A stretch of 50,938 bases of DNA from Bacteroidaceae bacterium. Its GTDB lineage: Bacteria > Bacteroidota > Bacteroidia > Bacteroidales > Bacteroidaceae. This document shows, in pieces, positions 969-38,205 of the stretch. Each line of letters starts with the position of its first letter. Within the stretch, counting starts at the first letter, position 1. The notes beneath the pieces are model-generated. The model had not been told where the DNA came from, did not search any database, and worked only from the letters and a program-made list of their open reading frames with translations. The translations under genes were made by a program, and so were the position numbers. The stretch spans positions 1-50,938 of the forward strand of contig JAKSIZ010000012.1 of the NCBI GenBank assembly GCA_024398515.1, in the 5' to 3' direction.

Positions 969-1097
969 ATTTGTTATTTTAAATACTAAATATATTTATA
1001 TTTTCTTTCTTATATCTCTGCTCGTTCCCTATAATGAGTGAACTGCCATCATCTATCATCCGTTTTCCTTTTCAGGAACGACCTTTATACTTGGGGG

Positions 1098-1160
1098 AAA
1101 ACTGCTACAGTTTTCAAGTCAAAACTGCTACAGTTTCCGATCCAAAACTGCTACAGTTTT
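1098..1160. repeat. Tandem palindrome array, family 1, three copies
   Basis: Three copies of AAAACTGCTACAGTTTT sit at 1098-1114, 1121-1137 (last base changed to C) and 1144-1160. Each is a 7-bp inverted repeat around a 3-nt centre, and the period is exactly 23 bp with 6-bp spacers. The array lies in the 259-bp gap between the susD-like start and the GH78 stop. Read on the minus strand, it is preceded by CGACGTTAATA and followed by GTATAAAGGTCGT. Both flanks recur, with variation, at the arrays near 20.3 kb and 38.0 kb. Function is unknown. The rest of the 969-1227 gap shows nothing else. Confidence 0.85.
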
Positions 1161-1227
1161 TTTTCAGGTATTAACGTCGTTTCGTCGTATGTCACTATTC
1201 ACTCCACCTTGGGGGAGCAGGAATGGA

Positions 1228-3858
1228 CTACAATTTATATGTTCCGCTACCATAGTCTTTCCCATTTATTGTTGCGGTGCATCCGAATGGTATTTCTACC
1301 GTTATCTCTCCTCGGCGTACTTCTACGCGTATTGTTCCGTAGGGCGTTTGCTTTTCGGCTTTCACCCAATCCACACCGTCAGGTATCTGTGGTTTGATGG
1401 TAAAATGCCTGTATGCTGGTGAATCTTCGTCGGGTACGATGCCTGCCAAACCTTGATAGAACCATGTGCCGATGCCGTTGTAGCAATTATGGATACGTGA
1501 GCGCGAACGGTCCCATGACTCCCATGTGGTAGTCGCATGGTTGTCTATCATGTATAGATAGCCTGGATAATCGCGTTGCTTCAATATGCTGTACATTAGT
1601 TGCGACTCGTTGTTGCGTGTAGCCCATTCGGTATATATGGGCACCCCTACAAGTCCTACGGCTATGTGGTTGCCGTATTTTGTTGCGGATAGGTCTTCGA
1701 GTTTCCTGCACACCTTATTATATATGTCGGCGGATGGGATTACACCTGCGTTCATTGCATACGACATGTCTAATGGTGATGCAGTAGCGTATGTACTGTC
1801 GGAGGCGTTGTAGAACGTTGCGTGTATCTTCTCATTGAGTTTCTGTCTCCACGATGCATACTTGTCGGCATCGTCATACTTGCCTAAGCACTTTGCAATG
1901 TTAGTCATAGAGTGCAGACAGTCGCTCACAAAGCAGTTGCTTACAAGGCTGACGGAGCGTTCATCACTGGCATTAACGCTTGTCGGTGTGAGCCAATCGC
2001 CAAGAAACCATACGCGGTTGCGAGTATCAGGCCAACGTTGCAGCAAACCATCAACCGAGTATTTTGCCACATATTCCAACCATCGCTGCATATTATCGTA
2101 ATGACGGGTAATCATTCTTGTATCGCCATAGTTAATGTATGCCCTCCACGATGCTTGGATAATAAATCCGCACCAATATGGTCCGCCGCCTCCACCACCT
2201 GCTGGTGCTACGTGAGGCATACCACCATCCTCGTCTTGGGCATCGTTCCAAGCGTTTAACCAGTTGTAGTATGTGCTTGAAGCATCCTGCAAGGTTTGCA
2301 AGGTCATTGTCGAAGAGTTGCCGTCGCCACCATATCCCATTCGCTCAAGGTGAGGGCAATCAACCATGTAACCACTGAAGGTGAGGCAACGAACGGTGCG
2401 TTTTATCATATCGTGAATAGAGTTCAGGTCGGTGTCGGAGCATTCAAATGATGATATGTCGTTTTGGTTTGCAGCAATTTGTAGTGCTTCAATGGTTGAT
2501 GTGTCGGGCTTCTTATCAAGTCCGCTGATTGCTATGTAGCGGAAAGCATGATGGTTAAAGCGGTTACAAAACACGTTTGGGTTTGTGGCTGAGGCAATAA
2601 GAACATCCTTTTCGCCTGTATATTGCAACGAGTCGGCATAGTCGTCGGCATATCTTATGACCACTTCCTTGCCGTCATTCAGACTGCCAAAGTCTGCCGA
2701 TAGCCATCCAGTGATGTTCTCTCCGAAGTCAATCATCCACTCTCCACCGCCTAATCTGCGGATGGATTGAGGCTTTAGTCTCCTTGTTATGGTATTTCCT
2801 ACAAACATCTGTGGTGTGGATTTCGTTATCGTTATCGTTTTCGTTATCGTTATCACAGGCGCATCGCCTACACGGTTGAGGTTGGGCATACCCTTTCGTG
2901 CATCTATCTGTTCGCCTCCGAACTGCAAAGGCATCCATGTGCCAATGTCGTTGAGGTAACCTATGCCGTCGGAATTGCAGTGCCATGTGTTATCTGTGGA
3001 AGTGATGCAACGCACAGTGCCGTCGGGTGCAATCTCGTCGAGTTCTGCTCGCACTACCGGTGTGTCCGTGGCATTATGGAAAAGTACTTGTTTGTACCAG
3101 CCCTTGCCTAACCAGATGGCTACGATATTGGTGCCATTGTGCAGATGATGCGTCAGGTCGTAGCTCACGATGAGCGAACGTTTGTCGAGCTGCGACACTG
3201 CAGGTGCAAGTACCTGGCTGCCCACCTTCATGCCATTGACATACAATTCATGATACCCCAGCGAATTAATATGAATCACGTATTTGCCTTTTACTTTGTC
3301 GAGAGTGATTTGTTTTGTCAAGACTGGAGTAGTGTTTTGCCGATTATCGGTAGTGATATATTCGCCTTTGAATTGGTTCCCAACTTCAGTCAAAGAATTG
3401 TTATCGTTATCGTTTATCCCTATACCAAAACGGTGTATCGCGCTCCATCGGGAACAGGCACCGTATCTGTTCCATGTTCTTACTCGCCAATAGTAGATGT
3501 GACGTTCATGGAGAGGTTGTCCGCCATACGAAACCATCACCGACTCATGGCTCATCACTCTACCCGACTTCCAGATATCGGCATTCCCACGTTGCAGTAG
3601 TTTTCGTGTTGTGGCTATCTCTATCTCGTATGCCGTCTGGGCATCGTTATGGCAGTTTGAGTGGTTAGTCCAGCTGAGATGAGGGCAGGTATTGTCGATG
3701 GCAATCGGCTCGTGAAGGTTTTCACAAAGCAGATTGTCAACAGTAAGGGCAGAAATCGAGTGGTCTGTAGAGGTGATATTCACCGTTTTACCATCACACG
3801 GAAGCCACATCATCACACAGAGTAAAAATGCTAAAGACCCCAAACACCTATAACCCAT
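1228..3858 (-). CDS. GH78 alpha-L-rhamnosidase, secreted
   Basis: This is an 876-aa protein with an N-terminal signal peptide (about residues 1-23). N-terminal beta-sandwich domains include PHLSW and the YYWRVRTWN segment, and an (alpha/alpha)6 barrel follows. The GH78 catalytic signature is present: DCPHLERMGYGGD places D500, E505 and D512 at the spacing known from characterised enzymes. A later WESWD supplies the probable catalytic base E780. The C-terminal beta domain carries IKPQIPDGVDWVKA. The enzyme hydrolyses terminal alpha-L-rhamnose, probably in the periplasm or at the surface. Two stretches of GATAAC-type hexamer repeat lie inside the gene, encoding ITITKTITITK (about residues 335-345) and INDNDNN (about 145-153), both at likely domain linkers. 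The start codon also lies at the edge of such a tract. It ends 259 bp before the susD-like gene and probably shares transcription with the GH2 gene upstream. Confidence 0.92.
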   Translation of the reverse strand: MGYRCLGSLAFLLCVMMWLPCDGKTVNITSTDHSISALTVDNLLCENLHEPIAIDNTCPHLSWTNHSNCHNDAQTAYEIEIATTRKLLQRGNADIWKSGRVMSHESVMVSYGGQPLHERHIYYWRVRTWNRYGACSRWSAIHRFGIGINDNDNNSLTEVGNQFKGEYITTDNRQNTTPVLTKQITLDKVKGKYVIHINSLGYHELYVNGMKVGSQVLAPAVSQLDKRSLIVSYDLTHHLHNGTNIVAIWLGKGWYKQVLFHNATDTPVVRAELDEIAPDGTVRCITSTDNTWHCNSDGIGYLNDIGTWMPLQFGGEQIDARKGMPNLNRVGDAPVITITKTITITKSTPQMFVGNTITRRLKPQSIRRLGGGEWMIDFGENITGWLSADFGSLNDGKEVVIRYADDYADSLQYTGEKDVLIASATNPNVFCNRFNHHAFRYIAISGLDKKPDTSTIEALQIAANQNDISSFECSDTDLNSIHDMIKRTVRCLTFSGYMVDCPHLERMGYGGDGNSSTMTLQTLQDASSTYYNWLNAWNDAQDEDGGMPHVAPAGGGGGGPYWCGFIIQASWRAYINYGDTRMITRHYDNMQRWLEYVAKYSVDGLLQRWPDTRNRVWFLGDWLTPTSVNASDERSVSLVSNCFVSDCLHSMTNIAKCLGKYDDADKYASWRQKLNEKIHATFYNASDSTYATASPLDMSYAMNAGVIPSADIYNKVCRKLEDLSATKYGNHIAVGLVGVPIYTEWATRNNESQLMYSILKQRDYPGYLYMIDNHATTTWESWDRSRSRIHNCYNGIGTWFYQGLAGIVPDEDSPAYRHFTIKPQIPDGVDWVKAEKQTPYGTIRVEVRRGEITVEIPFGCTATINGKDYGSGTYKL
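2824..2854 (-). repeat. GATAAC hexamer tract inside GH78 gene (first)
   Basis: Five hexamer units (CGTTAT on the plus strand, one changed to CGTTTT) run in frame through the coding region and encode alternating Ile-Thr with Lys. The same hexamer occurs at 3400 and 3869. Confidence 0.85.
3400..3424 (-). repeat. GATAAC hexamer tract inside GH78 gene (second)
   Basis: A 25-bp stretch here is identical to 3893-3917 in the GH78/GH2 intergenic tract. It is read in a different codon phase from the 2824 tract, giving Asn-Asp repeats instead of Ile-Thr. Confidence 0.85.
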
Positions 3859-11900: not shown

Positions 11901-12713
11901 AGTTACAGGGGCAGGGACAATCTCGGTGTGTTCATTGCTAATCTGCACTGGTGCACCATCAAATATAGGGCGTACTTCCCCCGTACTGTCATTGACCAAT
12001 CTGGCATCTCCCCACACATCAGTTATAATAAATGGTGCAAGTCTTGTATAAACCTCGCTTACATCTTCGCCCTCTGCTCCAAATATGGTCAGCCAGAAGA
12101 ACCTATACCATGGGTATGCTGCAAAAATATATTTCACAAACGTGCGATTGTCGCCTGTCATCACGGGGTCGAGTTTGCCATACTCTATACTCTCTCCAAT
12201 GAGCGATTGCTCTATAAAGTAGGCACACATGGCTGAACAATTCGTCTTCAGAAAGTCGTATTTCCAGTGTGAATTGCCGTGAGCATCCTCGTCAAGGCTC
12301 TGCCACAACAACCTCTTTTCTTCAAGGGTTAGGTTCAGTTTATACTCCATCACTCCACGGTGGGTTTCCTTGTATTCTTCCAGGAAGTCGTCTGTAAACA
12401 TAGGCACAAATGTCCCTTCGCCAGTACCATCAAAGAATCTGAACTTATTTTCGAGCGTATTGCTAAAACTATATGTGAAGCAATAGTCCATGTCGTGCGA
12501 CGGGCACTGCATCCTGATGGCACAGTGACCGCAACAGCCATATATATCGTTGCTCGGTTCGGCTATTATAAGGCTGGCAAACACGTCAGTGACAAGCCCG
12601 CCTCCTTCGTTTGCCACACTGTCAACGCCTTCCTCTTGGGCGCACAGTTGCAATGGTGCAAGCAAAAAACAGGTAACAAACAACGAAGCAATTTTAAGTG
12701 TAAAACATTTCAT
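8967..12713 (-). CDS. DUF4105/Lnb-like membrane domain fused to GH38-like alpha-mannosidase
   Basis: This is one open frame of about 1248 aa; the frame stays open to 12743, but a TAACTTTG promoter box at 12729-12736 favours the ATG at 12713. A signal peptide (ending LCAQ) is followed by a DUF4105-like domain (GCCGHCAIRM, TNCS), then about five membrane segments (roughly residues 270-395). After a short basic linker comes a second signal-peptide-like stretch (LLIFLSLMPFSTNAQ, about 425-440). A GH38-like alpha-mannosidase follows, with GYHGGVYGHYP (H449), CEEPCYTSCLP, CPNTCWGGY and C-terminal beta domains. The internal signal peptide says two genes have become one. The joint contains a run of eight G in the coding strand and a GC hairpin. 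The GH38 assignment is by eye; canonical zinc-site residues are not obvious. Confidence 0.7.
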   Translation of the reverse strand: MKCFTLKIASLFVTCFLLAPLQLCAQEEGVDSVANEGGGLVTDVFASLIIAEPSNDIYGCCGHCAIRMQCPSHDMDYCFTYSFSNTLENKFRFFDGTGEGTFVPMFTDDFLEEYKETHRGVMEYKLNLTLEEKRLLWQSLDEDAHGNSHWKYDFLKTNCSAMCAYFIEQSLIGESIEYGKLDPVMTGDNRTFVKYIFAAYPWYRFFWLTIFGAEGEDVSEVYTRLAPFIITDVWGDARLVNDSTGEVRPIFDGAPVQISNEHTEIVPAPVTPFIAFLALLIVSLVITVVHVKGVARKVVVYFDIVLLAVQTVAGIVSLYFNTMSHLQGVHDSWHILIMNPLPLLVVLLFRKKPKYMRMGLMLYSALIVVYLCVAPFTPQILLPHVFIALALLLRSGARSLKSISQRPKEETKNTQAIPLRRTVRGGLLIFLSLMPFSTNAQRYFVDGYHGGVYGHYPIMTYTQFLYDQLKQHPAWSMGLEIEPETWDTVQVRTPEAYRLFKSIAGSSQVEYTNPSYAQSYLYCVEGESIIRQFQMGIAKTREHFPDVRIQTYACEEPCYTSCLPTLLPQLGFKYMTLKCPNTCWGGYARNFGGQFVNLIGPDGTYMIAVPRYDCETLEPNSVWQTAGWGNSERYWKSCSQAGIQNPVAMTYQDAGWKNGPWIGYGDKQNGTQYILWSDYFEKFAASAHKPDYRMSQEDVCPGLMWGTQVMQKLAQAVRKTENYLVDAEKCMVIENLSLPKAFPQLTNGESLKNMNEAWRTLLLSEHHDCWIVPYNNLNQYGTWADNVNLWTAASIRIAKEEVEKASLVPWESPILMEDDNRSGWLILNTLPYSRRQVFNENGKVFAVDLPAFGSIKIKDKDVAYAKTTHGITVKKNICTVENKMFRIQFDLKKGGTVSSLIIKDGRTEYVDNKGNYSFGELHGYFKSDNTFHSSTETPASVNVLQDNSLVKSIELNGEIAGVPFTKTITLTEDDPKIKVTLTVDWKHNEAIGDYAFKNAKKKRGDNGPQHVSYYDTRYMLSVFFPTSIESGSIVKDAPFDVCESQLDNTFYNRWDSIKHNLVLNWIDLEGTNSKSMALFTDHTTSYSYGKDYPLALTVQYSGPGLWGRDYTVNQPTTITYHLMPHKGTWNESHIQLHNDMLNTSQRATRIAMDNTEQHSFLSLEGTGYSLSAFINEGDKKLTLRLFNFEGDSSVQSIILPSNVVRMQHVDLLGNVLNEIPVNVRDGVVTAKVSMPRFAVNTYWLMVDG
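11436..11462. other. C8/G8 homopolymer and GC hairpin at the gene-fusion joint
   Basis: Eight C (plus strand) at 11436-11443 overlap an inverted repeat, CCCCTTA / TAAGGGG (11440-11446 and 11456-11462, 9-nt loop). It lies in frame between the membrane part and the internal signal peptide. With seven G in the coding strand the frame would reach TGA at once. A similar GC hairpin is intergenic at 37907. Confidence 0.75.
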
Positions 12714-12728
12714 ATCTAAAAATTTCGG

Positions 12729-12736
12729 CAAAGTTA
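12729..12736 (-). promoter_or_regulatory. Bacteroidetes -7 box for the fusion gene
   Basis: TAACTTTG on the minus strand matches TAnnTTTG exactly. It lies 16 bp before the ATG at 12713, so the leader would be very short. A -33 TTTG is not clear. Confidence 0.55.
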
Positions 12737-12885
12737 CAAACAAATATCAATAAGAAAAGTAAAATTTGAACCAACAAATATTAAAAACGAACCATACTAT
12801 GCCGTTTTTATACCTTTTGCCCAGAATAGTTACAAAAACCCGTCGATTACATCCTTGCAGAAACAGATAAAATGATAACCGCTAA

Positions 12886-12956
12886 GCCTCAAAACTGCAT
12901 AACCTCATAACCTATAACCTTAAAACCATATATCTTTAAAACCTCAAAACCTTACC
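12886..12956. repeat. A/C-rich low-complexity tract (AACCTCATAACC-like)
   Basis: Irregular repeats of ATAACC, AAAACC and CCTCAAAACC fill this part of the divergent intergenic region. Similar tracts occur at 6600-6615, 8950-8990, 3843-3862 and 16357-16428. Apart from this tract, the 13029 array and a promoter box, the 590 bp of 12744-13334 show no gene. Confidence 0.5.
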
Positions 12957-13028
12957 TTCCCTCCTTTTCAATCAATCTTTCGAGGTTCGTTCGATTGGGT
13001 TTCTCAAGTTGAACGCTTAAATCCTCCA

Positions 13029-13091
13029 AACATTGTAGCAATGTTGAGTCGAACATTGCAGCAATGTTGGGTCAAACATTGCAGCAATGTT
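13029..13091. repeat. Tandem palindrome array, family 2, three copies
   Basis: Copies lie at 13029-13045 (AACATTGTAGCAATGTT), 13052-13068 and 13075-13091 (both AACATTGCAGCAATGTT). Arms are 7 bp, centres 3 nt, spacers 6 bp and the period 23 bp, the same geometry as family 1 but with different arms. The array sits between the divergent fusion gene and GH2 gene. The left flank (GTTGAACG...CCTCCA) resembles the one at 27730-27747. Confidence 0.85.
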
Positions 13092-13301
13092 TTTTCAAGG
13101 GTTCCTTTATAATTTACATTTTTGAACGTTTAAGTATTGAAAAGAATTGCCTCAAACGACCAAATACATAATCTCATCAAATCACTAATAGCCCAAACTT
13201 AAAAATGTAAAAATCAAACAAAAGCATATCAATTTTAGGACAGGGTTCGATTTTAATATTTTATTGAAAATGATTTATAGATGTTTATTTATAATATTTT
13301 A

Positions 13302-20180: not shown

Positions 20181-20321
20181 CGCAAACCTTCTTCGCCCAG
20201 CACAAATGATGACTAATACAACTGGGGTTTTCGTTTTTCACGCTCTCTTTGACTGACTCGATATTGAGTTTGTCTTGACGCGAACACTTGACTTTTATGA
20301 AACGTGCTTAATACTCGGAAA

Positions 20322-20361
20322 AAAACTGCTACAGTTTTGGATCGAAAACTGTAGCAGTTTT
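20322..20361. repeat. Tandem palindrome array, family 1, two copies
   Basis: AAAACTGCTACAGTTTT (20322-20338) and its reverse complement AAAACTGTAGCAGTTTT (20345-20361) are spaced at 23 bp. The right flank GGTATAAAGGTCGTC and a following AGCGTTCATGTCA match the 38.0-kb copy with few changes. The rest of the 308-bp gap shows no gene. Confidence 0.85.
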
Positions 20362-20488
20362 CCGTCGGGTATAAAGGTCGTCATCAAAAAGTATAGCGTT
20401 CATGTCACGAACGCCAACTAATCAGGTACCCCCAAACGATACAAGCAAGGAGGCAAAAGAGCAATAAAAAAGACTATATTCTGCCGCA

Positions 20489-27622: not shown

Positions 27623-27747
27623 GTGAAGAAAGTCTCACTCTTTAACAAAGATTAACCTAAAATGTTCGCTTTTTTTGGCTGAGAACACGCTTTGCATTCA
27701 GGGAGTCGGGCGTCATGGATTTTGAGGTTGAACGGTCAACCCTGCCA

Positions 27748-27810
27748 AACATTGCTACAATGTTGACTCCAACATTGCTGCAATGTTGGTGCGAACATTG
27801 CTGCAATGTT
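27748..27810. repeat. Tandem palindrome array, family 2, three copies
   Basis: Copies at 27748-27764 (AACATTGCTACAATGTT), 27771-27787 and 27794-27810 (AACATTGCTGCAATGTT) have period 23 bp and 6-bp spacers. It lies in the divergent gap between tamB and the secreted dockerin protein. Confidence 0.85.
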
Positions 27811-28010
27811 AGTACACAGTATATGCGTCGATTTTATGATCGAAAAGCGTCGTTTTGAGCAATTCAAACGTTCATTCCTGATAAGGAGAAAAGACGAGTT
27901 AACATTTTCACACATTTGCAACACAAATTAAGTTAAGTTAAAATCATGCCTTTCAATCGTCAGTCCGACATAAACCTAAATCAAAAAAAAAGAAATAATA
28001 AGGAAATAAT

Positions 28011-37906: not shown

Positions 37907-37932
37907 CCCCCCTCACATCCTACTGAGGGGGG
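37907..37932. terminator. GC hairpin after the ribulokinase gene
   Basis: CCCCCCTCA and TGAGGGGGG form a 9-bp stem with an 8-nt loop. No T-run follows, so termination is uncertain. It resembles the hairpin inside the fusion gene at 11440. Confidence 0.5.
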
Positions 37933-38022
37933 AACAACTTACGCAAGAGTAAAGCAAGATGGCATTGGTTTCTGCGAGGTATGAACGTTAGGCATTCTCG
38001 ACACGACGTTAATAACCCCAAA

Positions 38023-38085
38023 AAAACTGTAGCAGTTTTGACTTGAAAACTGTAGCAGTTTTGCATCGAAAACTGTAGCAGTTTT
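38023..38085. repeat. Tandem palindrome array, family 1, three copies
   Basis: AAAACTGTAGCAGTTTT occurs at 38023-38039, 38046-38062 and 38069-38085, exactly 23 bp apart. It is preceded by CGACGTTAATAACC and followed by TATAAAGGTCGTCCGAAAAG. It lies 120 bp before the GH51 start. No consensus promoter was seen in 37898-38205. Confidence 0.88.
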
Positions 38086-38205
38086 CCTGCAACTATAAAG
38101 GTCGTCCGAAAAGAGCTAAGCGTTGAAGTCATAATCGACAACCAAACGACCATCCCTGCAAACATCAAACGACAAAAGCAAATATTAAGCAAATTAATAG
38201 AAATT

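Follow-up and report, generated by a model that had tools for sequence, protein, structure and literature searches.

Palindrome arrays in the window

The window, by which we mean the whole 50,938-bp stretch analysed here (contig C4 in the assembly of a Bacteroidaceae bacterium), carries five arrays of short palindromes that start at positions 1098, 13029, 20322, 27748 and 38023. All five had been described in a preceding sequence-only reading, and their geometry of 7-bp arms, 3-nt centres and 6-bp spacers at an exact 23-bp period was confirmed, as was the count of two or three palindromes in each, with the added detail that the array at 20322 has two units and the array at 1098 contains one imperfect palindrome. 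The arrays belong to family A (arm AAAACTG) or family B (arm AACATTG), and none of the features given below is assigned to a strand. Two-unit patterns with up to two mismatches matched the window five times for A and four times for B, versus 0.00 expected matches (100 shuffles each).

The array at 1098..1160 is a family A core of three palindromes, AAAACTG-CTA-CAGTTTT, at 23-bp period, of which the middle unit ends in CAGTTTC (one mismatch), with the spacers CAAGTC and CGATCC. Together with about 70 bp of degenerate flank per side, the whole element extends approximately over 1028..1230; its ends are not sharp, and this rough extent touches the stop of the gene at 1228-3858. The family B core at 13029..13091 (approximate whole element 12959..13161) has divergent genes on either side and consists of three perfect palindromes, AACATTG-NNN-CAATGTT, with the centres TAG, CAG, and CAG; its left flank GTTGAACGCTTAAATCC is near the family consensus and its right flank is degenerate. 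Only two palindromes form the family A core at 20322..20361 (approximate whole element 20252..20431), with the centres CTA and TAG and the spacer GGATCG; the right flank GGGTATAAAGGTCGTC fits the A consensus and the left flank is similar to it. The family B core at 27748..27810 (approximate whole element 27678..27880, left flank GGTTGAACGGTCAACC) has three perfect palindromes and lies between divergent genes for a TamB-like and a dockerin-containing protein. Three perfect palindromes also make up the family A core at 38023..38085 (approximate whole element 37953..38155), which lies in a 308-bp gap between the genes for an araB-like kinase and an alpha-L-arabinofuranosidase (abfA). Whole-element extents were derived from family-level flank conservation and periodicity at lag 22. 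Besides glycan genes, the neighbours of the window arrays encode TamB, an RNA methyltransferase, and an LRR protein. A strong terminator-like hairpin (CCCCCCTCA...TGAGGGGGG) is located at 37907-37932, right after the araB-like gene in the arabinose gene cluster.

Number and families of the arrays in the genome

The assembly has 2,652,605 bases on 90 unordered contigs and is 88% complete. Adjacent palindrome pairs with up to three mismatches were found 151 times for A, 144 times for B, 52 times for a third family, C (arm AACATTC), and 107 times for a fourth family, D (AAAGTTGTACAACTTT), whose palindromes have a centre of 2 nt and repeat every 22 bp. The reversed patterns gave 0 pairs for each of the four families in the whole genome. 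A chance origin of the arrays was ruled out by the shuffles in the window and these controls in the genome. The two sequence families recognized in the sequence-only reading hold for the window and grow to four genome-wide, and its concern that the period might vary freely or that the five arrays might be the only cases was dispelled by the A and B pair counts. At two pairs per triple, the pair counts, rather than individual elements, give about 227 elements genome-wide, i.e., one per 11.7 kb.

A sample of 792 kb (30% of the genome) on nine contigs, namely the window and eight contigs from the lists of A and B matches, was read closely. It contains 61 arrays of families A, B, and C (26 AAA, 26 BBB, 7 CCC, one AA, and one BB) and 12 D arrays, the latter recovered by a scan for triples. 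The period was 23 bp in all 61 A/B/C arrays and differed in D (22 bp). Exactly three palindromes were present in 71 of the 73 arrays: sharp units numbered three in 59 of 61 A/B/C arrays and in 12 of 12 D arrays (the D scan sought triples only), and two in the remaining two arrays. No mixed-family array was found among the 61 A/B/C arrays, and none had more than three units. Four isolated palindromes occurred in the 792 kb; three were left out, and one (C12:62), which is followed by an A-type flank, was counted. Four contigs start within 0.5 kb of an array (C15:114, C28:290, C45:430) or of this single A palindrome (C12:62), so the repeats may have broken the assembly.

Family D was discovered in element-free stretches by running a profile of the flanks alone, with the core ignored, over the contigs. 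Eleven new hits were viewed, of which six held AAAGTTGTACAACTTT triples with period 22 and had scores of 11.3-43.4, among the best of the new hits; the other five (C12 11971, C5 10890, C23 3605, C4 8555, C1 79628) scored 7.4-12.2 and contained no array. One D array (C1 124370) lies in one of three long gaps, one (C12 97840) in the middle of a 17-kb gap, and four (C12 151205, C5 5409, C5 31608, C2 19302) in element-free contig ends. A further D array, C23 54208, lies in the second long gap, at a site where the flank profile score was low. Two weak, A/T-rich hits of the D scan (C23 95851 and C4 944) were not counted.

Anatomy of the elements

Read outward, the flanks follow a common consensus on both sides of the core (roughly TGtccGAGTTAAgCGtTCAACcT..gAAA..CaAaCG.tCGA for B and tTT.CgAgTATaA.G.TCGTcc...aAAAgc..aaCG.TCg for A), which makes the middle palindrome the centre of an overall dyad; in some copies, a B core is bordered on one side by a flank of A type. 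Self-identity of the flanks peaked at lag 22 in all families (z 6.6, 6.6, 4.2, and 2.9 for A, B, C, and D, respectively), and lag 22 was unremarkable 105-190 bp outward (z -1.3 to 0.5); degenerate outer units run outward at this 22-bp period for about 70-90 bp. Mean information per 23-bp block of the B flank falls outward from 0.94 to 0.43, 0.33, 0.14, and 0.08 bits, and A and C fall likewise. Given the lag-22 periodicity and the outward fall in information, the most fitting description of the element is an outwardly decaying 22-bp array, roughly 190-220 bp long, with three sharp central units. Flank conservation and the lag-22 data thus make the 63-bp cores of the window the middle of 190-220 bp elements.

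B triples were perfect across all 42 arm positions in 26 of 26 cases, and their neighbouring flanks differ widely. A triples were perfect in 8 of 26, with most changes in the middle unit, and C triples in 0 of 7, with changes mostly at the outermost arm base as judged by eye; the A arm substitutions inspected affect one side of the palindrome only. Strong selection or homogenisation acts on the core, and the perfect B cores amid varied flanks, together with the one-sided arm changes, favour sequence recognition over simple hairpin formation. The flanks were no better matched within a copy than between copies, the closest to an excess being the second block of A (P 0.08). The idea that the two flanks pair with each other, whether as RNA or as single strands, was rejected because no significant within-copy excess was found and the inner flank of B matches worse within copies. 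The centres of the outer palindromes are complementary in 7 of 7 family C arrays; family A has 12 complementary and 14 identical pairs, and family B has 7 complementary, 11 identical, and 8 others. As RNA, the cores of the five window arrays fold more stably than their shuffled versions (z -3.8 to -8.2), as is expected since repeated palindromes must fold.

D elements are often lopsided (e.g., C1:124370 and C5:5409): one flank is of the common GAGTTAAGCGTTCGTCC type, and the opposite flank contains a conserved inverted repeat resembling CACCCCCAACAGAACAT-CTGTAGAGGGG. At C1:84046, a different hairpin (CCAGCCGCGGAGGGCTGG) is located between the core and the right flank and was apparently inserted into the element.

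Gene context and orientation

Sixty-three of the 73 arrays overlap no ORF call. Six lie inside ORF calls of 104-135 codons, which we think are spurious, and four overlap an ORF end, with two of these ORFs being long (826 and 683 codons); none of the 73 lies inside an ORF call of more than 135 codons. The 55 A/B/C arrays in called gaps are distributed over 34 tandem, 11 divergent, and 10 convergent gaps, which is close to the overall composition of gaps measuring 120 bp or more (95 tandem, 45 divergent, 32 convergent). D arrays were found in 5 tandem, 4 divergent, and 2 convergent gaps, and one at a contig end. Where a B element has a single T-rich side, this is the right-hand side in all 4 forward-tandem and all 6 reverse-tandem gaps, so B orientation is independent of the direction of transcription. 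A context like that of all gaps and a B orientation independent of the genes point to a role at the level of DNA rather than of transcripts. A directional terminator was rejected for B because its orientation is unrelated to gene direction. Elements in tandem gaps are closer to the stop of the upstream gene in 29 of 37 cases, which could reflect a 3'-end role.

Spacing along the chromosome

The main finding, absent from the sequence-only reading, is that the elements are regularly spaced at about 10 kb. With all four families combined, the 74 elements (73 arrays and the single palindrome) in 792 kb define 65 intervals with a mean of 10.1 kb, a median of 9.35 kb, a coefficient of variation (CV) of 0.38, and a minimum of 4120 bp; this sample represents 30% of the genome, on contigs picked from those in the match lists. 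Intervals shorter than 4 kb numbered 0, versus 17-21 expected under three null models (uniform placement, placement in intergenic gaps of at least 60 bp, and placement in intergenic gaps of at least 150 bp; 4000 simulations each). Mean CVs of the null models were 0.81-0.92, and the observed spacing values were reached in 0 of 4000 simulations per model. Without the single palindrome C12:62, the remaining 64 intervals have a mean of 10.1 kb, a CV of 0.39, and a minimum of 4120 bp.

Families A, B, and C alone give 52 intervals with a mean of 11.0 kb, a CV of 0.50, and a minimum of 4.7 kb, including three gaps of 27-31 kb; adding D lowered the CV from 0.50 to 0.38. All 12 D arrays are at least 4120 bp from any A/B/C element, a position shared by 46-53% of free intergenic sites, and draws from three pools of free sites matched this in 0, 1, and 2 of 20,000 cases (P 0, 5e-5, and 1e-4). 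One gap of 28.0 kb (C12) is still without an element after the addition of D; by eye, it holds large secreted or SusC/SusD-like genes and no array.

The minimum distance between A/B/C neighbours was 4706 bp for unlike families and 5078 bp for like families, and 20 neighbour pairs were of like family versus 20.6 from shuffling, i.e., the order of families is random. Because the families follow one another at random and neighbours of different families are kept apart just like those of one family, all behave as a single set. The exclusion zone of about 4 kb does not depend on family in this 30% of the genome, and the agent that enforces the spacing ignores the core sequence or reads all four alike. 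Deletion between like repeats was ruled out as a cause of the spacing, as unlike neighbours are equally excluded. The alternating order A B A B A along the window was likewise dismissed as chance, since family order is random in the 792 kb.

Related genomes

Exact A arms were found in 0 of 59 relatives and exact D arms in 0 of 397 other genomes of the genus. The A and B patterns had 0 matches in the genome_contigs collection, and the exact pair patterns of A, B, C, and D had 0 matches in viral contigs, two collections from which the own genome may be left out; a phage origin was rejected on the viral-contig result. At about 67-81% DNA identity in matched genes, the relatives are too diverged for an insertion point to be located. 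Of 14 relatives that share the araB-abfA gene pair, 11 have 23-110 bp between the two genes, compared with 308 bp in the window, a difference that is consistent with an element of 190-220 bp. Eight of these 11 short gaps were read: none contains an array, and seven contain, by eye, a single terminator-like hairpin, which sits at the same spot as the hairpin after araB in the window and differs from it in sequence. The gaps of the remaining three relatives measure 333 bp in G082, which has its own 22-bp palindromes there, 924 bp in G016, where ~41-bp palindromic repeats are found, and 1303 bp in G019, apparently with another open frame. G016 has long intergenic arrays of ~41-bp units (L153:7260-7500 and 12310-13050), many units having a GC-rich palindrome; several palindrome sequences follow each other within one array, and the second array fills the araB-abfA gap.

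A sample of 60 stretches from 53 genomes (1.05 Mb) was scanned for comparable arrays. A looser scan for triple palindromes yielded 15 arrays in 14 of the 60 stretches (13 of 53 genomes), and three block shuffles yielded 0. By eye, about ten of these arrays were judged convincing, and those in L071, L119, L120, and L135 look like low-complexity sequence. A strict scan of the 1.05 Mb for near-identical exact arms at periods up to 60 gave 52 rows at six loci and nothing in the first 268 kb. Tandem arrays of the relatives had units of 20 bp (n = 6), 21 bp (n = 21), and 22 bp (n = 18), with 19 bp (n = 1), 23 bp (n = 0), and 24 bp (n = 5) being rarer; units of 20-22 bp thus stand out among those of at least 19 bp, and shorter units of 7-15 bp are still more numerous. 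Arrays with 20-24 bp units are intergenic in 39 of 50 cases under a simple ORF mask. The relative G034 has GTCCCA-N5-TGGGAC three times at 22 bp (L151:10948-11008) and CGCAGGTGAGACACCTGCG twice at 32 bp (L151:16300-16350).

Spacing was calculated in two relatives. G006 carries 22-bp arrays of AAACCTATGGTTTTGA with 54 forward and 73 reverse matches (up to one mismatch; control 0). In 397 kb, its 20 arrays with at least two matched units define 16 intervals with a mean of 17.9 kb, a CV of 0.32, and a minimum of 8.8 kb; one further array changes this to 17 intervals, 17.3 kb, 0.35, and 8.1 kb (P 5e-5 for the CV and 1e-4 for the minimum versus uniform placement). These statistics leave out other 22-bp palindrome-like or tandem arrays, of which some lie about 0.3-3 kb (C98:84583, C30:42274, C88:15833) and others a long way (C27:29515, C88:59017) from the main family; given the nearby ones, exclusion in G006 holds within one family only. 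In 120 kb of G028, at least two families of 22-bp palindrome arrays occur, one having about three units (3 of 3 sites) and another about four (4 of 4 sites). When a third type is included, the seven intervals have a minimum of 7.8 kb (P 0.008) and a CV of 0.54 (P 0.09), a weakly significant spacing that leaves out other 19-24 bp arrays, some of them close by (31193 beside 32349). From these sequence comparisons, the architecture appears to recur in the genus, with exact arm sequences that are species-private as far as searched.

Interpretation of the arrays

We propose that the arrays are one chromosome-wide set of about 227 mostly intergenic elements that serve as protein platforms bounding segments of about 10 kb, a reading to which we give roughly an even chance. 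The regular spacing, the indifference to gene direction, and the shared exclusion suggest a chromosome-structural role. With palindromes about two helical turns apart, the geometry suits three dimers side by side, and each core would hold three dimers of a putative sequence-specific protein, with a paralogous protein or a variant for each of the families A-D. The complexes would act as regularly placed boundaries or anchors that cut the chromosome into ~10-kb segments, as nucleoid or supercoil domain sites, and rapid co-evolution of site and protein could explain the species-private arms. Sites for a family of DNA-binding proteins, one of the two suggestions of the sequence-only reading, is still the best reading and has been strengthened by families C and D and by the other species, with a binder that is putative. 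HTH_ParB, the sole candidate family searched, had 0 matches in the 88%-complete genome. All 19 relatives searched have at least one match, and three of them (G001, G006, and G041) have a second, weak one; of the relatives with convincing arrays, this search covered G006 and G007.

The other suggestion, two small mobile elements, has lost ground, as conservation fades from the centre without a sharp end and unlike families keep their distance. A small non-autonomous element of REP- or MITE-like type, whose spread is limited by target immunity or selection so that an exclusion zone results, would agree with arm sequences private to the species (0 of 59 relatives have A, and 0 of 397 other genomes of the genus have D), with a flank shared by both sides to give an overall dyad, with A-type and B-type flanks swapped between families in some copies, and with araB-abfA gaps of 23-110 bp in 11 of 14 relatives that lack an array in the eight read. 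In Porphyromonas gingivalis, 23-nt repeats sit within a MITE according to the cited part of PMC4596501. We nevertheless regard this origin as unlikely: conservation peaks centrally, the reverse of a transposon end, B cores stay perfect amid widely diverged flanks, and unlike families exclude each other. The only match to a Y1 transposase, the sole transposase family searched, is a fragment with a stop beside another repeat family, and the arrays spare ORF calls of more than 135 codons (0 of 73; six lie in calls of 104-135 codons, and four overlap an ORF end).

Transcription could instead be the level of action, by a terminator, an RNA processing hairpin, or a protein roadblock insulating transcription units, for which phage stoperators offer a comparison. 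The position near the upstream stop in 29 of 37 tandem gaps, the folding of window-core RNA (z -3.8 to -8.2), and the complementary outer centres in 7 of 7 family C arrays are compatible with such elements, which we consider improbable because divergent gaps are not avoided (11 of 55 for A/B/C, 4 of 11 for D), B orientation is independent of gene direction, A and B show no preference for complementary outer centres, the window has no Rfam match at gathering scores, and a terminator role alone predicts no hard minimum spacing. Sites for nucleoid occlusion or membrane anchoring, Noc- or SlmA-like with another protein, would likewise be palindromes spread over the chromosome, and the spacer-centred TTTC-N4-GAAA of A and D has what we take to be a likeness to parS/Noc-site skeletons, one that may merely reflect the arm ends. 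Such sites appear very improbable to us, given a number of about 227 versus about 70 Noc sites in B. subtilis in the cited part of PMC4331003, and given 0 HTH_ParB matches in the incomplete genome and mostly one per relative.

Chromosome-wide platforms at discrete sites about 10 kb apart would make the domain idea testable, since such sites can be catalogued, relocated, removed, or turned into bait. The four families here and the different ones in sister species would form a system for studying co-change of a binding protein and hundreds of its sites, and punctuation every ~10,000 bases may be a so far unrecognised way to divide a chromosome. A more speculative extension, which we hold tentatively and think rather doubtful, is that the genus keeps a metric punctuation of the chromosome: roughly regular intergenic arrays built of palindromic two-turn units in interchangeable, species-private codes, with fast-evolving paralogous readers, the sharpest units at the centre, and older, decayed units pushed outward as in centromeric satellites.

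Comparison with known systems

Porphyromonas gingivalis presumably belongs to the same order as the present organism, if the genus assigned in the sequence-only reading is right. The operators OR and OL of phage lambda share this geometry, each comprising three dyad sites of 17 bp that are about 6-7 bp apart, but they are two loci in a phage and not a chromosome-wide set. No account of the present elements was found in the open-licence literature among the matches listed. Of the published repeats found, BrickBuilt and the 22-, 23-, and 41-nt repeats of P. gingivalis come closest and may be distantly related: in the part of the source cited, they are likewise intergenic, with a unit of about 23 nt, and species-limited (PMC4596501), and the 41-nt repeats are matched by the ~41-bp units in G016 of the present genus. 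BrickBuilt has 19 copies of 1 to 22.8 units each, with a leader and a tail that have IS5-like terminal repeats, and the string 'palindrom' occurs 0 times in the main text (PMC4596501). The present set differs in its ~227 copies, 71 triples among 73 arrays, four families, and regular spacing, and it does not show the variable number of 23-nt units that is the hallmark of BrickBuilt, nearly all arrays having three sharp units. Sharp terminal inverted repeats with the outermost part most conserved, the hallmark of MITEs, are also lacking, as information falls outward. The element is absent from the same gap in relatives, which at about 67-81% identity in matched genes are too diverged for an insertion point to be located.

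Sites of Noc and SlmA are similarly palindromic and scattered along the chromosome for a division-related function (for Noc, the cited part of PMC4331003). The present elements are more numerous, occur in threes, and have several alternative sequences in one genome, and the HTH_ParB search found no Noc-type protein in the incomplete assembly. REP and BIME repeats resemble them, in the sources as far as cited, as many extragenic palindromes per genome with species-specific subfamilies. One BIME impedes supercoil diffusion, and BIMEs have been proposed as domain barriers in the cited part of PMC6907758; by analogy, BIMEs would be the nearest counterpart for a chromosome-structural role. Fixed triples at 23 bp (22 bp in D) and regular spacing set the present elements apart, as does the absence of the constant REP tag, a GTAG or CGTC tetranucleotide at one palindrome end outside the stem (PMC3733652, in part). 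By eye, A has GTAG only across the centre, B centres vary (CAG, TAG, GAG, and others), and C and D have no fixed tag at the stem end. No intact RAYT gene flanked by these repeats was found in the 88%-complete assembly; CGTC-type REP repeats seem to be without a dedicated transposase in the passages cited (PMC3733652). At C18:22396-22599, a Y1_Tnp fragment with an internal stop adjoins repeats of the CGCCCTGTAAGGGC type rather than the palindromes described here. This fragment and the CGCCCTGTAAGGGC repeats (L063:1370-1830, on C18) are probably a decayed REP/RAYT system that is unrelated to the triple palindromes.
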